From Nitrospirales bacterium (GTDB lineage Bacteria; Nitrospirota; Nitrospiria; Nitrospirales; UBA8639), in assembly GCA_029261355.1 (NCBI GenBank), contig JAJDBM010000010.1, positions 62,001-126,000 on the forward strand: a stretch of DNA of 64,000 nucleotides. Reading direction: 5' to 3'. The stretch's first letter is position 1, and every line of letters starts with the position of its first letter. The notes under the pieces were generated by a model that saw only the letters and a list, made by a program, of their open reading frames with translations, did not search any database and was not told where the DNA came from. Positions 55,905-64,000 of the stretch are shown here, piece by piece. The position numbers and the translations under genes are program-made.

Positions 55905-56753
55905 ATGAGACGTATCATCCAGATGTTAGGGGTTCTGTTTCTATTATTCGGCTTGACCGGAGGAGTTAACGCTGAAACAATTTCTTTGTCTGGTCGTGCC
56001 GGCAGCACGTTGGGAACAAACGATTTGTCGTTTGAAGGTGAAGATGTGGTGAGATATAACTCTACTAATAATACGGCGACGTTGTCTTTAGAGGGAGGCA
56101 ATATTTTCAGCAATGTACTTGATATTAAAGCTGTTCACCTCCTGGCCAATGGTGATTTTCTTCTATCGACTAGTGGCACAACCAGTATTGGAGGACTGAG
56201 CTTTGATGATGATGATGTTGCGATATACAATCCAATGACCTCTATGGCCTCCTTGTTGATAGATGGTGCAATGATTTTCTCTGGAAATGAAGACATAGAT
56301 GCGATCTCAGTCCTTGCGAATGGTAACTATGTTTTCTCGACGACAAACGAGGCCTCTATTAATGGGTTTTCGTTCGAGGACGAAGATCTTGTAGAATATA
56401 ATCCAACGACCATGAAGGCGTCACTCTTTCTTGATGGAGATACCCTATTCGCTAGTGACGAGGATATTGATGCTGCGCATGTGCGAGCCAATGGCAACAT
56501 TCTTTTTTCAACAGCCGGCAATAATTCGATTAATGGTCTGAGTTTTAGTCATGATGATATTGTTGAATACAATCCGATTTTAGATACGGCTGCAATAGTC
56601 TTTAATAATAGATTGCAGAATAAGGACAGGGTGCTTAATATTGACGCGCTAACTATAGCTCCCGTGTCGACGACGGCGGTGCCTGAACCAACATCAGTGG
56701 TTTTGTTGGGTACCGGGCTCCTTGGATTCTGGGCGCATCGACGTCTGAAGTAA
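55905..56753 (+). CDS. Exported PEP-CTERM protein with internal repeats
   Basis: 282 residues. The signal peptide is MLGVLFLLFGLTGGVNAE-like. The body is four copies of a unit of about 57 residues with the pattern SxxGLSFxDDDxVxYNP, ASLxLDGxxxF and LANGNxxFSTT, giving a beta-rich repeat protein. The C-terminus is a PEP-CTERM sorting signal: VPEPTSVVLLGTGLLGFWAH plus a basic end, recognised by exosortase. It should be exported and anchored or released at the cell surface. No exosortase is in the window. GGAGGTGG precedes the ATG. Confidence 0.9.
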   Translation: MRRIIQMLGVLFLLFGLTGGVNAETISLSGRAGSTLGTNDLSFEGEDVVRYNSTNNTATLSLEGGNIFSNVLDIKAVHLLANGDFLLSTSGTTSIGGLSFDDDDVAIYNPMTSMASLLIDGAMIFSGNEDIDAISVLANGNYVFSTTNEASINGFSFEDEDLVEYNPTTMKASLFLDGDTLFASDEDIDAAHVRANGNILFSTAGNNSINGLSFSHDDIVEYNPILDTAAIVFNNRLQNKDRVLNIDALTIAPVSTTAVPEPTSVVLLGTGLLGFWAHRRLK

Positions 56754-56847: not shown

Positions 56848-57081
56848 TTGAATTGTGCAGATAAAATGGGAGTAAGCAGCTTAGGCGCTTATGCGGCTGT
56901 TTGGTCTCGCTTGTTAACTCAGTTTCGTGACTCTACACCCTGTTCAAGTTGGGAGGATCTATCATTGGAATTGAATCCGGTAAAAGGAATCTTTAAACGA
57001 TTTCCTGTGTTTCCACAACCTGTTACACTTTGGTATTCAATGAGCAATCCAGTACCCATGGGATATTCTAGCGACCAATGA
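56848..57081 (+). CDS. Small unknown protein translationally coupled to the DUF2868 gene
   Basis: 77 residues from a TTG with GAAGGG upstream, or 71 from the ATG at 56866. No hydrophobic segment or motif is evident. Its stop codon overlaps the DUF2868 start (ATGA), which argues that it is really translated. I do not recognise a family. It forms the first member of a coupled trio with the DUF2868 and DUF3482 genes, so a role in the same system is likely. Confidence 0.55.
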   Translation: MNCADKMGVSSLGAYAAVWSRLLTQFRDSTPCSSWEDLSLELNPVKGIFKRFPVFPQPVTLWYSMSNPVPMGYSSDQ

Positions 57082-58571
57082 CTGAAGATAAATTAATAAA
57101 AGTTGTTATGGTTTGGAGTTGTGAGGAAGAAGATCCCAAAGGACAGTTTCTTTCGATGCATGAACGACAACAAGCAAGCCGATTGGCAAGTGCAGAGGTC
57201 ATCAAAGAATCAAGTCAAATTCCAAGATTCTTAGAAGAGGAGCTCGTGCTTTCTCGTGCTCAGCATCTCACCACAGTACTTGAAAGCCAATGTTCCATCC
57301 TGCAGACTGCTCGTCGCCTTACTCAGATACGTTTTCCCATTTTTGTAATCGTGACATTTGCAATTCTCGGAGGATTATTGAGCGACCCAATTGGGCTCAA
57401 AGGACACATTAACTTACTGCATTTTCCTTTGCTTGTCTTATTGATTTGGAATATGACTTTGTTTATGTGGATTGGTGTGAAGCCTGTGTTTCAGAACCCA
57501 TTAACGAATGGTCAACCTGGGTGGGTGTTAGCTGGATTCAGTAAAGTTGGTCTCTGGGTTTCCCAATTTCAACTTCGTCTTATCCAATGTCGGAGTCATG
57601 AAGAAAAGCAATGGATAGTGAATTCGTTGGTGCGGTTTTTTGGACGATGGAGATCTCTTGCGGGACAAGCCATTCGCCTTCAACTACAGTCAGTATTGCA
57701 TGTGGGTGCAGCAAGTCTTGCCATTGGTGCCATTATCGGTCTGTACCTTAGAGGATTCGCCTTGGAATATCGTGTGAATTGGGCTAGTACATTTCTTGAA
57801 GCTGAACATGTACATAGTATTATGTTCATGATTCTTTCTCCAGCAGCTATCATCTTGGGTATCGACTTTCCGTCGGTTCAGACAATAGCCATGCTCAGGG
57901 CGCCTGCTAGTGAAAATGCCGCAATGTGGATTCATCTGTGGGCCGTGACGTGTTTGCTGTTTATTATTATTCCAAGAATCGGACTAGCATGGGCGGTTAG
58001 GCAAAAAGCTTCAGCGCAATTAGAGGACTTCGTTCTTCCTTTAGACGAGCCATACTTCCTTCGCATACTCGCTCAGTATCGTGGAGATGGCATAAGTGGA
58101 GAAGTCTTGCCGTATCAATGTCAGCTTGATCCTTCAATTATTGAGCGTCTAGAGGGACTGTGTTTGGAAATGTTTGGAAATAGCGTCTATGTGAGTACAA
58201 GGCCTCCAATTCCATATGGTGAGACGAATTATCATGTGCAGGTATCTAGTCATATGTCACTGCGCGTACTCGTGGTTTTTGATGTCGCGACAACACCTGA
58301 ACAAGAAGTGCATGGTGAGTTTCTTCAATGTATTCAAGCTCAGATTGAAGGTTGGACATCGGAGGCTTCGTTATTAGTATTCATTTATGAAGAGTCTTAC
58401 AGGACTAGCATGGATCAACAAAGACAACGAGAACGCTACCAAACATGGAAACGATTTACGAATGGCTACGGTCTTGAGCCGATTCCGTTTTCCGTCACAA
58501 GTGATGTGAATGGTCTTCTTCCGCAAGCAGCGGCAACGTTGTGGACGACTCGTTCGCAAGAGGTTCCATGA
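57078..58571 (+). CDS. DUF2868 family membrane protein
   Basis: 497 residues with four membrane helices (about residues 85-105, 115-135, 210-230 and 275-300), a long soluble N-terminal region and a C-terminal alpha/beta domain. DUF2868 proteins are almost always encoded with a DUF3482 GTPase, as here. The pair is of unknown function and is thought to form a membrane-linked NTPase system. Both ends overlap neighbours (ATGA at each side), so the trio is translated together. Confidence 0.85.
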   Translation: MTEDKLIKVVMVWSCEEEDPKGQFLSMHERQQASRLASAEVIKESSQIPRFLEEELVLSRAQHLTTVLESQCSILQTARRLTQIRFPIFVIVTFAILGGLLSDPIGLKGHINLLHFPLLVLLIWNMTLFMWIGVKPVFQNPLTNGQPGWVLAGFSKVGLWVSQFQLRLIQCRSHEEKQWIVNSLVRFFGRWRSLAGQAIRLQLQSVLHVGAASLAIGAIIGLYLRGFALEYRVNWASTFLEAEHVHSIMFMILSPAAIILGIDFPSVQTIAMLRAPASENAAMWIHLWAVTCLLFIIIPRIGLAWAVRQKASAQLEDFVLPLDEPYFLRILAQYRGDGISGEVLPYQCQLDPSIIERLEGLCLEMFGNSVYVSTRPPIPYGETNYHVQVSSHMSLRVLVVFDVATTPEQEVHGEFLQCIQAQIEGWTSEASLLVFIYEESYRTSMDQQRQRERYQTWKRFTNGYGLEPIPFSVTSDVNGLLPQAAATLWTTRSQEVP

Positions 58572-60022
58572 GTCACGATGTACCACAACAGGTCACGCTT
58601 TCTATCACGTCCCACACAAACGTTGGCAAGACGACGCTGATTCGAACATTACTCCGTCGCGATGTCGGAAAAGTGTTGGATCAGGCTCATGTCACTGATC
58701 AGAATGAGAAATTTACATGGGTAGAAACACAAACGGGAGAAAAACTAGAGGTTTGGGATACGCCGGGCTTTGGCAATTCAGTTCAGTTGTTACGATTATT
58801 AGAAAAACAGGAAAGTCCGATTGGGTGGATGATTGCACATGTATGGGATCGATTTAAAGACCGGCCATTGTGGTGCAGCCAACAAGCGCTAAAAAATGTT
58901 CGGGATGATGCAGATATTGTCCTCTATCTCGTGAATGCGTTGGAAGATCCAAAATTGGCCGGTGGTTATATTAATCCTGAAATGGAAATTTTAAATTGGC
59001 TACAGAAGCCAGTGCTGGTGGTACTGAATCAAATTGGACCTGAACGTGATCAGTCAGAAATGGCAGTATGTGAACAGGCGTGGCATGAGTATCTCCAAAA
59101 ATATTCGGTTGTTCGAGGGGTGTTGAGCTTAGATAGCTTTTCAAGATGTTGGGTGCTTGAAGGTGTACTCTTGGAACATGTTCAGGATATTCTCCCTATG
59201 AGTTCTCAGCCTCCAATGGCTCGACTAGCGAAGAGCTGGAAGAGACACAATATTGAAATTTTCAAAAATTCTATGGCTCGATTAGCTGAGGTCTTATCGC
59301 GAGCTGTCTATGATCAGGAAGAAGTAAGTGGAACAGGTCCGAGTAGGAAGATCAAGGTCAAGCATGCGGCAAAGGAATTAAGGCATCGGCTCGAACAGGA
59401 CATACGGCTTGCCGTCCAAGATCTGATCAATTGGCATGGGTTAGAAGGAGATGCTGCGATAAAGATTCAAACGCAATTACACGATATGACCGTTCCAATG
59501 GAAACTTCTGTGATGGAGGAAGCCTTGGGGCGTGCAGCATTGGGCGGATTTGGAGGGGCTGCTGCAGGAACGGCTACGGGAGTTGCAATTGATGCGGCAA
59601 CTGGTGGGATGTCGTTGGGACTCTTTGCCCTGACAGGTGCGTTTCTTGGCGCATTGGGTTTGGCGGCTTGGGGGAATGAGACCGAAACAGAAGAGACTCT
59701 GAAAATCAAATGGGTGCCTACATACCTTAATACGCTTGCCCAAGACCTTCTTTTGCACTACATGGCCGTCTCGCATTTCGGCCGAGGTCGAGGACACTTT
59801 CAAGGCACTCAAGAGAACCCAGAGCTTTGGTCAGAAGAAATTCAACGAGTATGTGAACAGTATCAGAATGAGTTTGAGCGAATCTGGTTGATTGACGACG
59901 ACTATCTTGACGAACCTGTCGGTCCAGAAGAGCATTCTCGAGAAGTCTCCTCCTTGCTTTCAAGTGCTATGCATGACGTTTTTTTGATTTTTTACCCTTC
60001 TGCTTCAGCGCTAGACATCTAA
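58568..60022 (+). CDS. DUF3482 family GTPase-like protein
   Basis: 484 residues. An N-terminal Era-like G domain has the P-loop SHTNVGKTTLIRTLL (about residue 18; the usual first Gly is Ser), a G3 DTPGFGN and a G4-like LNQIG in place of NKxD. The C-terminal half carries two hydrophobic stretches, GGFGGAAAGTATGVAIDAAT and GLFALTGAFLGALGLAAWG, probably membrane-inserting. The ATG at 58568 overlaps the DUF2868 stop; an earlier TTG is unlikely. The pair may sense or remodel membranes, but this is a guess. Confidence 0.85.
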   Translation: MSHDVPQQVTLSITSHTNVGKTTLIRTLLRRDVGKVLDQAHVTDQNEKFTWVETQTGEKLEVWDTPGFGNSVQLLRLLEKQESPIGWMIAHVWDRFKDRPLWCSQQALKNVRDDADIVLYLVNALEDPKLAGGYINPEMEILNWLQKPVLVVLNQIGPERDQSEMAVCEQAWHEYLQKYSVVRGVLSLDSFSRCWVLEGVLLEHVQDILPMSSQPPMARLAKSWKRHNIEIFKNSMARLAEVLSRAVYDQEEVSGTGPSRKIKVKHAAKELRHRLEQDIRLAVQDLINWHGLEGDAAIKIQTQLHDMTVPMETSVMEEALGRAALGGFGGAAAGTATGVAIDAATGGMSLGLFALTGAFLGALGLAAWGNETETEETLKIKWVPTYLNTLAQDLLLHYMAVSHFGRGRGHFQGTQENPELWSEEIQRVCEQYQNEFERIWLIDDDYLDEPVGPEEHSREVSSLLSSAMHDVFLIFYPSASALDI

Positions 60023-60106: not shown

Positions 60107-60988
60107 CTATCGTTGAATCTGAATTCCATACTTTTTAATCTTATAATACACTGTTCCTCGACTCACATTTAAAACGTTCGAGGCTTTTTGGGTGTCCAAT
60201 TCTGTTCGGTAAGCACTTTGATGAGGGTCTGTCGGTTCACATCTTCCAAGGGAGACGATTTTCCTTCAGATTCACTCTCATTGTCGAGGGCAGGGGAAAG
60301 CTCAGGTTAAATAGTCTGATCTTCAATCATGTAAGTGGTTCGAGAGCGAAGGATGAGGTTATATAACCTATTCTTTAATTGCCGAATATTTCCAGGTCAT
60401 GGGGCAGACAACAGTAGTTGCATTCCCTTTTCGGTCATGACTGGGACGGTGTCCAAATGAAGCTCTTTTCCAAGTTTTTTTAAAAAATGATCAATAAGAA
60501 GTGGTAGGTCTTTCATTCTTTTCCTTAAGGGAGGGACGACAATCTGTACGACTCGAAGTCGATAGTATAAATCTTCGTGAAAGCTTCCTTCTTGAATATC
60601 ATGTTCTAAATTCCTATTTGTCGCAGTGATAAACCTGACATCTGTAGGAATTTCTTGTGATCCTCCCACCCGCATGACAGCATGTTGCTGTAAGACTCGT
60701 AGTAACTTTGCTTGAGCTGGTAAGGACAGTTCTTCAATTTCATCCAAAAATACTGTGCCATTTTTGGCTTGCTCGATTTCCCCCATCTTCATATTCGATG
60801 CCCCGGTAAAAGCACCTTTTTCATAACCAAATCATTCACTTTCCATAAGGTCGATGGGAATGGTTCCGCATTCTGAGAAATGTCACTATTTTTTACACCC
60901 ATGATGAGCATTCTTCTACCCTATTGAAAAAGATGGCTTTAATCTAAAAAATATCTTTCCCGAGTCACCCAAAATAACTAGCAGGCCC
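60107..60988 (-). pseudogene. Remnant of a sigma-54-dependent response regulator/activator
   Basis: The reverse strand keeps recognisable sigma-54 activator parts: a damaged Walker A (LLVILGDSGK, missing the TG step), ECGTIPIDLMESE, a TGA where Leu is expected, then FGYEKGAFTGASN, NGTVFLDEIEELSLPAQAKL, EDLYYRLRVVQIVVPPLRKR, another TGA where the Trp of the WPGN motif is expected, then PGNIRQLKN. A TAA follows, and a frameshift before ASNVLNVSRGTVYYKI, the Fis-type DNA-binding helix. At least three stops and one or two frameshifts show it is inactive. Confidence 0.88.
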
Positions 60989-61157
60989 CTTGCGATATGT
61001 CTGTATCATGCGGTCACGAACAAAAGGTATTCAAAGGTAATTCGTGGCTTATTTGAACCTCCAGAGCTATGCTACACGACTAACGAGAAGAGTAATGTCG
61101 CTGCATTGAGAGAATACTATTTACCGTATCAAAAACTAATTGAGGGAGATGGCGAAA

Positions 61158-61787
61158 ATGACAAACACAGGAAAAACCCAATTGATGTTGATCATTGCTG
61201 GTGGAGTTCTTCTCGGTAGTATGCCCGTAGTTTTTGGGGAATCTGAAATAAAGGGAAACGTCACAAACACTTCGAAAATTCAAAACTCCAATAATGTCAG
61301 TCAGGGCAAGGGAAGTGAGGCCAACCTGGGTTCTATTAAAATTTCTGAAAGCAAGATTAAAGGAAATATTCGAAATTCTGCAAACATTAAATCTTCCTCA
61401 AATGTGGCCAAGGGGTCAAATGCGGAGGCCAATCTAGGATCGGTTTCGATCAAGAACAGTACGGTGAAGGGGAACGTCACAAATTCCGTCAATATCCAAG
61501 GAGCACGCAATACAGCCGAAGGCCCCAATGCCACCGCCAATTCAAGCTCAGTCATTCTGGACAATAGCACCTATAGTGGGACTGTTGTGAATTCAGTCAA
61601 AGGCAAGTCTGGGAAAAATATAGCCAAAGGTTCTGGGGCCGAAGCCAATTCCAACTCAGTGGTCCTTAAAAATCAAAGTAGTTCTAAAACAATCATCAAT
61701 TCTGTGACGGCTGGGGCCAGCCAGGATGACAATGTGGCCTCTGGAGCTGGGCAGACATCTAACAAGAACTCCATCATTTTTAAATAA
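61158..61787 (+). CDS. Exported repeat protein 1, candidate amyloid fibre subunit
   Basis: 209 residues from the ATG at 61158 (GGGAG 9 bases upstream). A signal peptide (LMLIIAGGVLLGSMPVVFGE) is followed by five degenerate repeats of about 36 residues in the pattern KGNVTNSxxIQxSxNVAxGx, then AEANLGSVxIxNS, rich in Asn, Ser, Gly and Ala and lacking Cys. Each unit splits into two about 18-residue strand-turn-strand halves, like curlin repeats. Homologous to the next gene's repeats. I infer a fibre-forming secreted protein; a beta-solenoid adhesin is the alternative. Confidence 0.75.
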   Translation: MTNTGKTQLMLIIAGGVLLGSMPVVFGESEIKGNVTNTSKIQNSNNVSQGKGSEANLGSIKISESKIKGNIRNSANIKSSSNVAKGSNAEANLGSVSIKNSTVKGNVTNSVNIQGARNTAEGPNATANSSSVILDNSTYSGTVVNSVKGKSGKNIAKGSGAEANSNSVVLKNQSSSKTIINSVTAGASQDDNVASGAGQTSNKNSIIFK

Positions 61788-61968
61788 TGGGATTTGGCGA
61801 AAGTTAATCGAGATGGACGAACAAGAGAACATGCAGCATTACATGAACTTACTTCAAAAGAAAATAATCATGAACCTTTTAACCATTCACCCCGACTCAT
61901 TAATTATGGAGAGCGCAATGAACATTCAATCATCAATCACTCATCATCATTCAACTAAGGAGAGAGCC

Positions 61969-62751
61969 ATGAAAACAGTATTATCATTTTTTACAGCCTT
62001 AATGTTAGTCAGTGCCTCGGGAGCGTTCGCGCAAGGTAGTCCAAGTTCACGAGTTGATGGCACTATCACAAACAAAGCTCAGGTGGAAAGCTCAAAGAAC
62101 ACAGCGATAGGTAGTAGCAAGACGAGTGCTGACGCGAATCAAGGTTCTGTGCAAATTTCAGATTCAAAGGTTGAGCGCAGTGGAAGCGTCAATAACGAAG
62201 CCAGCATCAAAGGATCACACAATACTGCTACGGCGGGCAGAGGCAGCGCGGATGCGAATATGGGATCCGTGCAAGTGGAAGATTCCACAGTCGGTGGTCG
62301 GATTTCAAATAATGCTAAAAAAATAGACCGATCGACAAATTTTGCGGATGGAACAAAGGGCACGGCGAATGCCAATATGGGATCCGTGCAATTGGAGGAT
62401 TCAACGGTGGAAAAAGGCGGCACAGTGACGAATGAAGCCACCATCAAAAATTCAACCAACACCGCCATAGGCAGCTATCGTAATCGTGCTGACGCCAATA
62501 TGGGGTCAGTGCAATTGAAGGATTCTATTGTGAGTGGCGATATTCACAACAAGGCCAACATTGATAAATCTCATAACACCTCCATGCCTGGTTATGGCAC
62601 TGCAGATGCCAACATGGGATCCGTTCAGGTGCAAGACTCTGAAGTCAAAGGACATATCAGCAACGATGGAACCGTCAAAGATTCCACGAACCTTTCTGAT
62701 GGGACCCGTGGCACCGCTGACGCCAATGTGGGATCTGTTCAGGTTGACTAA
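61969..62751 (+). CDS. Exported repeat protein 2, candidate amyloid fibre subunit
   Basis: 260 residues from the ATG at 61969 (AAGGAG). The signal peptide is VLSFFTALMLVSASGAFAQG. Six repeats of 37-41 residues follow, with a consensus of VxGxIxNxAxIxxSxNTAxG then ADANMGSVQVxDS. They are better conserved than in the upstream paralogue, even at the DNA level (for example AATATGGGATCCGTGCAA recurs), which suggests recent amplification or gene conversion. The frame extends 243 bases upstream, but that stretch has no signal peptide or ribosome site. Likely the major fibre subunit. Confidence 0.78.
   Translation: MKTVLSFFTALMLVSASGAFAQGSPSSRVDGTITNKAQVESSKNTAIGSSKTSADANQGSVQISDSKVERSGSVNNEASIKGSHNTATAGRGSADANMGSVQVEDSTVGGRISNNAKKIDRSTNFADGTKGTANANMGSVQLEDSTVEKGGTVTNEATIKNSTNTAIGSYRNRADANMGSVQLKDSIVSGDIHNKANIDKSHNTSMPGYGTADANMGSVQVQDSEVKGHISNDGTVKDSTNLSDGTRGTADANVGSVQVD
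62041..62750 (+). repeat. Six tandem coding repeats of about 117 bases
   Basis: The DNA core recurs about every 114-123 bases, always in multiples of three, near positions 62130, 62250, 62367, 62493, 62607 and 62721 (GCxAATATGGGATCxGTxCA and close variants). This gives the protein's repeated ADANMGSVQ segments. Confidence 0.85.
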
Positions 62752-62862
62752 TACGGACGAATAAGGGCACCAAGCGATCCGCCTGAGCAGGACAGTCCTG
62801 GCTCAGGCGGATCACCATACACAATCCTTTATCAATTGACATACCTACCTGGAGACAAAACG

Positions 62863-63186
62863 ATGAACAAATTATTGGGAATGGGTTTATGTGTGGGGCT
62901 CATGATATTTATGGGAGGCTTGAGTGAGCCGACATTGGCTGGTGAATTGGATGATGGGATTTCAACGTATAGAGACGATCCTATCAAGAATGATGATCAA
63001 GCCCTCAAGCCGGACACGAATTTAAATTTCATCATACAAGATGCGATTGCGGCTTCGAAGAGTGGAAGGAATGATAAGGATTCAAAAAACTTTAATGACG
63101 GAAGTGGTGAGAATAATCAAAATAGTATCATCGTCGGCCCTGGAACGCAGACCGGGGATGTGATTAATGTGATAATCGAGAAATAA
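62863..63186 (+). CDS. Small exported protein with a repeat-like C-terminus
   Basis: 107 residues from the ATG at 62863 (TGGAGA upstream). The signal peptide covers MNKLLGMGLCVGLMIFMGG and a little beyond, cleaving near LAGEL. The mature part is Asp/Asn-rich and ends NNQNSIIVGPGTQTGDVINV-IIEK, which echoes the NxxSV...G...VxN pattern of the two upstream repeat proteins. I infer a minor subunit, nucleator (CsgB-like) or chaperone-like partner for the fibre proteins. No homology to CsgE or CsgF can be claimed from the sequence alone. Confidence 0.65.
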   Translation: MNKLLGMGLCVGLMIFMGGLSEPTLAGELDDGISTYRDDPIKNDDQALKPDTNLNFIIQDAIAASKSGRNDKDSKNFNDGSGENNQNSIIVGPGTQTGDVINVIIEK

Positions 63187-63242
63187 GCACGGTTCATCAC
63201 GTGCAACGAAGGTTCAATCCAAAGGAAAAACAACGAAGGAAT

Positions 63243-64000
63243 ATGGACACCATGGACTCAATATGCAGGTTACGCAATCATCCTCTCTATAAACCGCAAA
63301 GACTATTTCTTCATGCCACAATAGTCATAGTCCTTTCCTGGTCCTTGGTATCGTGTCAGTCCATGGACCCTCGCAATGTGGATGTGACGCTTCCCGAAAC
63401 CCTGCCGACTGAAAAGGTGACCTCTTATAGTCAGGCTCTTACTGACTTAGGTTTGATGACAGAAATCTATAATACTGATCTTCTTAACATTCAAAGTAAT
63501 CCTATTGGCGATGACACTGGGGCCTCACGTTCGACTGGCAGCGAAATTCCTCAAGATATTACAGAAATGATCAAGACCTCCTTAAATTCTATTGGTGGAA
63601 ACGTCGTCTTTATTCCCTATGACCCGGCGTTTGTTCAAAACCAAACTTTAACTGGGTATTCCACCTTTGAAAATAAAACCATCCCTGACCTTGTCCTCAG
63701 CGGAGGGATCACGGAATTCGATCGAGGACTGGAGACTCGAGGCAAAAATACGGATGCTAGTGTTGACGTAGAAGTCAATGCTATGCCGGATTTCCTGCCT
63801 TCTAAAAATGTTGGATTTCGGTATGGGGATGAAGGGAAAACTGGACTTGCCAGAATCACGCTCGACTTTAACCTGTTGGATTTTCGAACCTTAGCTGGAA
63901 TCGCCAAAATTAATGCTGTGAATACGATGGAGGTCAATAAAGCTGTAGGGGGGAACGAATTAGGTATTAGCTTGTTTGGGCAAAGCTTTGGCCTGAAAGG
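63243..64000 (+). CDS. CsgG-like outer-membrane lipoprotein, cut by the window end
   Basis: An open frame of 252 or more residues runs off the right edge. A basic N-terminus and hydrophobic stretch end in a lipobox (SWSLVSC, Cys38). The mature part has a CsgG-like core: an NIGGNVV-type segment, FIPYDPAF, DLVLSGGITEFDRGLETRG (about residue 150), and ARITLDFNLLDFRTLAGIAK. CsgG is the nonameric secretion pore for curli subunits; HfaB is a relative in holdfast anchoring. An alternative start is the ATG at 63252. The C-terminus is missing, so the pore-forming part cannot be checked. Confidence 0.7.
   Translation, partial: MDTMDSICRLRNHPLYKPQRLFLHATIVIVLSWSLVSCQSMDPRNVDVTLPETLPTEKVTSYSQALTDLGLMTEIYNTDLLNIQSNPIGDDTGASRSTGSEIPQDITEMIKTSLNSIGGNVVFIPYDPAFVQNQTLTGYSTFENKTIPDLVLSGGITEFDRGLETRGKNTDASVDVEVNAMPDFLPSKNVGFRYGDEGKTGLARITLDFNLLDFRTLAGIAKINAVNTMEVNKAVGGNELGISLFGQSFGLK

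Follow-up and report, generated by a model that had tools for sequence, protein, structure and literature searches.

Exported solenoid-repeat proteins encoded beside a CsgG/HfaB-type lipoprotein in a Nitrospirales bacterium: a probable secretion and assembly cluster

Do two exported repeat proteins, a small exported protein, and a lipoprotein encoded side by side in a Nitrospirales bacterium make up a curli-like secretion and fiber system? The question is raised by the 3' end of the window, by which we mean the whole stretch of 64,000 nucleotides that was analyzed. The original prediction, made from the sequence by itself, saw here the minimal logic of curli, that is, fiber subunits plus a CsgG pore, in a form not known to have been described. 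From the results below, we consider it probable that these genes form a CsgG/HfaB-type secretion and assembly cluster, in which the two repeat proteins stack into surface fibers or an anchor layer.

RESULTS

Four adjoining genes lie on one strand

The four adjoining genes that had been predicted were all found, in a row and co-directional. The end of the window (position 64000) cuts the fourth, whose open reading frame is complete in the parent contig. Positions marked L002 refer to contig 10, bases 121001 to 141000, and equal the window position minus 59000. The features are as follows.

61158..61787, + strand: P1, gene for an exported solenoid-repeat protein (alternative ATG start at 61149)
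61969..62751, + strand: P2, gene for an exported solenoid-repeat protein, the probable fiber subunit
62752..62862, + strand: intergenic hairpin directly 3' of the P2 gene
62863..63186, + strand: P3, gene for a small exported protein of the DLDDGI family (107 aa)
63243..64000, + strand: P4, gene for a CsgG-fold outer-membrane lipoprotein, 5' part in the window (lipobox LVSC, Cys at 63354-63356)
L002:4243-5772: complete P4 gene (509 aa), with its stop at window-equivalent 64772
L002:6114-6845: LPP20-like exported protein, beyond 64000, conserved with the cluster
L002:7356-8129: DUF2807 (head GIN domain) protein, beyond 64000, conserved with the cluster
L002:8555-9448: DUF4384 protein, beyond 64000, downstream of the lipoprotein

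Other genes were seen nearby. Just upstream of P1, on the opposite strand (60397-60792), lies a 131-aa fragment of a sigma-54 enhancer-binding (AAA+) regulator; it appears truncated and is possibly a decayed regulator gene. The gene at 55905-56753 (+) encodes an exported protein with about four ~50-aa repeats (LANGNxxFST...) and a PEP-CTERM-like sorting signal at its end, a second, unrelated repeat protein close to the cluster. The genes at 57078-60022 (+), which appear to be cotranscribed, form a pair encoding a large membrane protein and a protein with a GTPase domain.

P1 and P2 are paralogous repeat proteins that differ from curlins

P1 consists of a signal peptide and five repeats of ~36 aa, the last two of them degenerate, and P2 of a signal peptide and six repeats of 36 to 41 aa, with neither end capped. 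In both proteins, the repeats are rich in Asn, Ser, Gly, and Ala. Self-identity peaked at lag 36 in P1 (0.445, versus 0.163 +/- 0.014 in shuffles) and at lag 38 to 40 in P2 (0.19, versus 0.127 +/- 0.010), and for each protein 0 of 2,000 shuffles was as strong. The core ANx[GSN]S[VIT] was present in 4 copies in P1 and 6 in P2, with 0.03 expected. The repeats are thus far beyond chance, and the two proteins, which share 36% identity (E = 7e-17), are paralogues. They were the only two such repeat genes found in this genome.

Orthologues range from 98 to 972 aa, with about 2 to over 20 repeats and no other domains. P1 is the paralogue that has a longer form in most relatives, its orthologues in loci L008, L009, L016, and L017 being 656 to 972 aa long. 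The number of repeats is likewise variable among curlins (PMC3521004, PMC10192328).

The repeats had been said to differ from the classic curlin consensus, and this was borne out. The curlin motif X6QXGX2NX10 occurred 0 times in P1 and P2 and once in 18 relatives together, with 4 occurrences in the E. coli CsgA control. None of the repeat proteins matched the Pfam curlin repeat, and the repeat profile showed no similarity to a CsgA/CsgB profile (0.1%). Searches by sequence in Pfam, NCBIfam, and the PDB gave nothing convincing for the repeat family. Pfam matches to DNA_ligase_OB, Adap_comp_sub, LBP_C, and others were rejected as low-complexity noise, being to unrelated families and inconsistent between members.

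P2 is modeled as an uncapped beta-solenoid

With relatives supplied as the alignment, AlphaFold modeled mature P2 as a regular beta-solenoid (pLDDT 93.9, pTM 0.90), in which one series of short strands (xV, xVxN, xIx, xNTAx, ADANM, and SVQV) recurs in every repeat. Repeats fill the mature protein up to its last residue, without a capping domain. In curlins, uncapped ends have been named as enabling end-to-end stacking (PMC10192328). A Foldseek search of the PDB with the P2 solenoid returned no significant match, the top-ranked entry being the functional amyloid FapC (9u4u; E = 0.037, probability 0.06); a viral fold library gave no significant match, and sequence searches of the PDB gave nothing. 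An uncapped beta-solenoid model was obtained for the repeat units, and no homology to curlin was detectable. P2 is probably the fiber subunit, and P1 and P2 would polymerize, with formation of fibers or amyloid.

Alternatively, P1 and P2 might remain monomeric outside the cell, as beta-solenoids of an adhesin-, ice-binding-, or lectin-like kind, and not polymerize. Beta-solenoids are frequent among nonfibrous proteins (PMC10192328), and weak Ice_binding Pfam matches were found for the repeats (E = 0.11, 2 of 22 members). Against this stand the absence of capping domains, the wide range of repeat numbers in proteins with no other domains, and the CsgG-type partner described below, and we regard monomeric solenoids as very improbable.

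P4 is a divergent CsgG-superfamily lipoprotein nearest to HfaB

The lipobox of P4, LVSC, is kept in nearly all orthologues; in P4 it is followed by QSM, with a +2 residue of the outer-membrane type. P4 itself had no accepted match in Pfam or NCBIfam. The PF03783 (CsgG) model misses the window protein; among 25 members of the family, it gave weak matches to 11, with E values up to 1 and 1.3e-4 at best. The HfaB model matched weakly in 10 of the 25, and PG_binding_1 was also matched in 10 (best E = 6.5e-6). With the HfaB equivalog NF037935, P4 scored 14.4 bits (E = 0.016), far below the cutoff of 300 bits. Profile-profile comparison by hhalign aligned the P4 family with HfaB over the whole CsgG domain (E = 1.1e-10, 97%); the values were 3.5e-4 for curli CsgG and 1.8e-3 for other CsgG-domain proteins. 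P4 was also modeled with AlphaFold (pLDDT 72.8, pTM 0.73). When the model was compared with the PDB by Foldseek, hits 1 to 18 were all CsgG (4uv2, 4q79, 6l7a, and 6lqh), the best being 4uv2 (E = 4.1e-6, probability 1.00), with moderate TM-scores to CsgG (0.28 to 0.33 by query and 0.42 to 0.51 by target). P4 thus belongs to the CsgG superfamily as a divergent member whose nearest relative is HfaB, and it carries in addition a peptidoglycan-binding-like domain at its C terminus. The call of a CsgG-like lipoprotein therefore stands for fold and homology, except that the nearest relative is HfaB and not curli CsgG. A separate PF03783 match in the same genome, on contig 47, was to a different, TolB-like protein outside the system and was discarded.

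The position of P4 nearest to HfaB suggests another reading, in which the cluster would be the functional counterpart of HfaABD, the holdfast anchor, with P4 exporting P1, P2, and P3 into a short, stable surface layer tethering polysaccharide or another adhesive, rather than into long fibers. In hfa loci, too, the neighbors of hfaB include genes for a small exported protein and for a long repeat protein, and HfaA forms SDS-resistant multimers, with HfaB required for arrival at the surface (PMC6707917). However, hhalign gave no significant homology between P3 and HfaA (8%, E = 0.004 over 29 columns) or between the repeats and HfaD (0.1%, E = 0.75), and holdfast polysaccharide genes were not seen next to the cluster. 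We consider an analogue of the holdfast anchor unlikely.

The CsgG pore is built from two beta-hairpins per subunit, giving 36 strands in the nonamer. In P4, segments 126-164 and 184-218 (mature numbering) fit the CsgG pore hairpins in place and length. For the first of these, 126-164, the pLDDT stayed under 50, and a scan of hydrophobic moments did not pick out the pore strands of P4 and was indecisive for CsgG itself too. The lipoprotein as completed beyond 64000 has the CsgG fold in the model, with candidate pore segments of which the first is modeled at low confidence. Because of the low confidence of the hairpin region and the indecisive scan, we infer, rather than observe, that P4 forms an outer-membrane pore or channel.

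P4 could also be a periplasmic CsgG-fold scaffold fixed to the wall, with no channel, the repeat proteins leaving the cell by another route. Precedents exist among flagellar outer rings and in other lipoproteins with a CsgG domain, and an LPHT ring was a weak Foldseek match of P4; the PG_binding_1-like C-terminal domain in 10 of 25 members, the LPP20-like neighbor gene, and the poor definition of the pore segments in the model and the moment scan point the same way. Its nearest homologue, HfaB, is nevertheless required for both HfaA and HfaD to reach the surface (PMC6707917), and the linkage of P4 to exported repeat proteins is constant. We judge such a scaffold improbable and favor a secretion and assembly role for P4.

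A small exported protein and a hairpin lie between subunit and lipoprotein genes

Linkage was counted in 29 loci whose upstream sequence reaches 1.3 kb or more, the window's own included. The DLDDGI gene encoding P3 directly precedes the lipoprotein gene in 27 of them. The original prediction had pointed to a C-terminal motif in P3 resembling the repeats; this motif, GENNQNSIIVGPGTQTGDVINVII, is visible by eye, but the comparison of P3 with the repeat profile was not significant. P3 is a possible nucleator or adaptor.

The hairpin at 62752-62862 has 13-bp perfect arms (GATCCGCCTGAGC / GCTCAGGCGGATC; z = -5.3). In 21 of 23 loci (the window and 22 relatives), a stable hairpin with z at or below -2 occupies the gap that separates the subunit gene from the small gene, and the hairpin sequences are unrelated between these loci; in L012, the hairpin is followed by a T-rich tail. 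No Rfam family was found for the hairpin, and promoter and terminator scans gave nothing above shuffles. The hairpin is probably a partial terminator or a stabilizer of the mRNA 3' end. Partial termination or 3'-end protection would lead to the subunit being made in excess of the exporter.

The cluster is patchily distributed and has its own accessory genes

A scan of genome contigs for the lipoprotein gave 31 loci, with the cluster in about 30 genomes. The hosts belong to Nitrospirota, Desulfobacterota/Desulfuromonadota, Planctomycetota (Candidatus Scalindua), Campylobacterota, and methanotrophs, and the cultured ones include Methylotuvimicrobium buryatense 5G and Geomonas sp. Red32. Upstream of the lipoprotein gene, between one and three repeat genes are present in 25 of the 29 loci, in five phyla; no repeat genes were found nearby in L033, L036, and L038, despite room upstream. 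The system is rare and patchy. Matches spanning the CsgG domain were found in 2 of 198 Nitrospirota genomes, and full-length lipoprotein matches in 4 of 297 Desulfobacterota genomes, plus two distant ones. The repeat profile had exactly 3 matches in the same 297 genomes, all with the lipoprotein.

Downstream of the lipoprotein gene, 20 loci encode an LPP20-like exported protein and 18 a DUF2807 protein; proteins of 112 aa and 100 aa are encoded in many. The original prediction had proposed a search for CsgE- or CsgF-like genes beyond 64000. Neither was matched in Pfam or NCBIfam among P3 and the six downstream proteins, and a different conserved accessory set was found there instead.

Minimal distant relatives were seen at L068:1240-3365 (-) and L069:370-2370 (+). 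In these loci, small exported proteins with a single repeat-like C terminus are followed by a CsgG-like lipoprotein, together with a von Willebrand A-like protein; long repeat genes are absent within the 1.5-kb flanks.

DISCUSSION

In the secretion and assembly cluster that we favor, P1 and P2 would cross the inner membrane unfolded via Sec and leave the cell through a ring of P4, a CsgG-fold outer-membrane assembly presumably held to the cell wall by the peptidoglycan-binding-like domain. Outside, they would fold as uncapped beta-solenoids and stack end to end, giving surface fibers or an anchor layer. P3 may be a nucleating or gating subunit with a CsgB/CsgF- or HfaA-like role. Periplasmic or surface accessories may be provided by the exported proteins encoded downstream (112 aa, LPP20-like, 100 aa, and DUF2807).

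Three known systems invite comparison. The Caulobacter HfaA-HfaB-HfaD anchor also unites, in one cluster, a CsgG-fold lipoprotein with two exported proteins, one of them small and the other a long repeat protein. However, P4 lies far under the HfaB equivalog cutoff (14 of 300 bits), the repeats have no detectable homology to HfaD and P3 has no significant homology to HfaA, and the peptidoglycan-binding-like domain, the other accessory genes, and the gene order are different here. With curli (csgBAC-csgDEFG), the cluster shares the CsgG fold, exported subunits of variable repeat number, a predicted uncapped beta-solenoid, and a candidate minor subunit. In contrast to curli, the repeat has 36 to 41 aa rather than about 23, the curlin motif and Pfam curlin match are absent, CsgE and CsgF were not found, and P4 is about twice as long as the curli pore protein. 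Fap resembles the cluster in using a long repeat as the solenoid unit, with FapC, which has a Greek-key solenoid, as the top-ranked, although not significant, fold match. In Fap, export is through FapF, a trimeric barrel (PMC12822426), whereas here a CsgG-fold lipoprotein is found, and no FapF candidate was present among the cluster neighbors by Pfam.

The minimal logic of curli thus survives as a CsgG-fold lipoprotein constantly linked to exported repeat proteins, but the curlin repeat, CsgE, and CsgF that would make it curli proper were not found. No description of the repeat family or of such a cluster was found in the open-license full-text papers searched, in agreement with the view that no system of this form is known to have been described. 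The cluster is not curli proper; it most likely adds a new variant to the CsgG-dependent solenoid-fiber or anchor systems. With confidence only a little better than even, we propose that curli and Hfa are joined here by a third CsgG-dependent fiber lineage. Its solenoid unit of 36 residues would have evolved separately from curlin, its pore would be anchored to the wall, and its accessory set would be its own; it would occur patchily in five or more phyla, mostly in bacteria from sediments, the sea, and the subsurface.

If this is true, CsgG-type secretion of self-stacking repeat proteins would extend past curli and holdfast anchors and would not be tied to the curlin repeat, so that unrelated solenoid sequences would share one kind of exit. 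The cluster would also provide a fresh test of which substrate features are recognized by the CsgG pore and, through the cultured M. buryatense 5G and Geomonas sp. Red32, a new tractable fiber family for biofilm biology.
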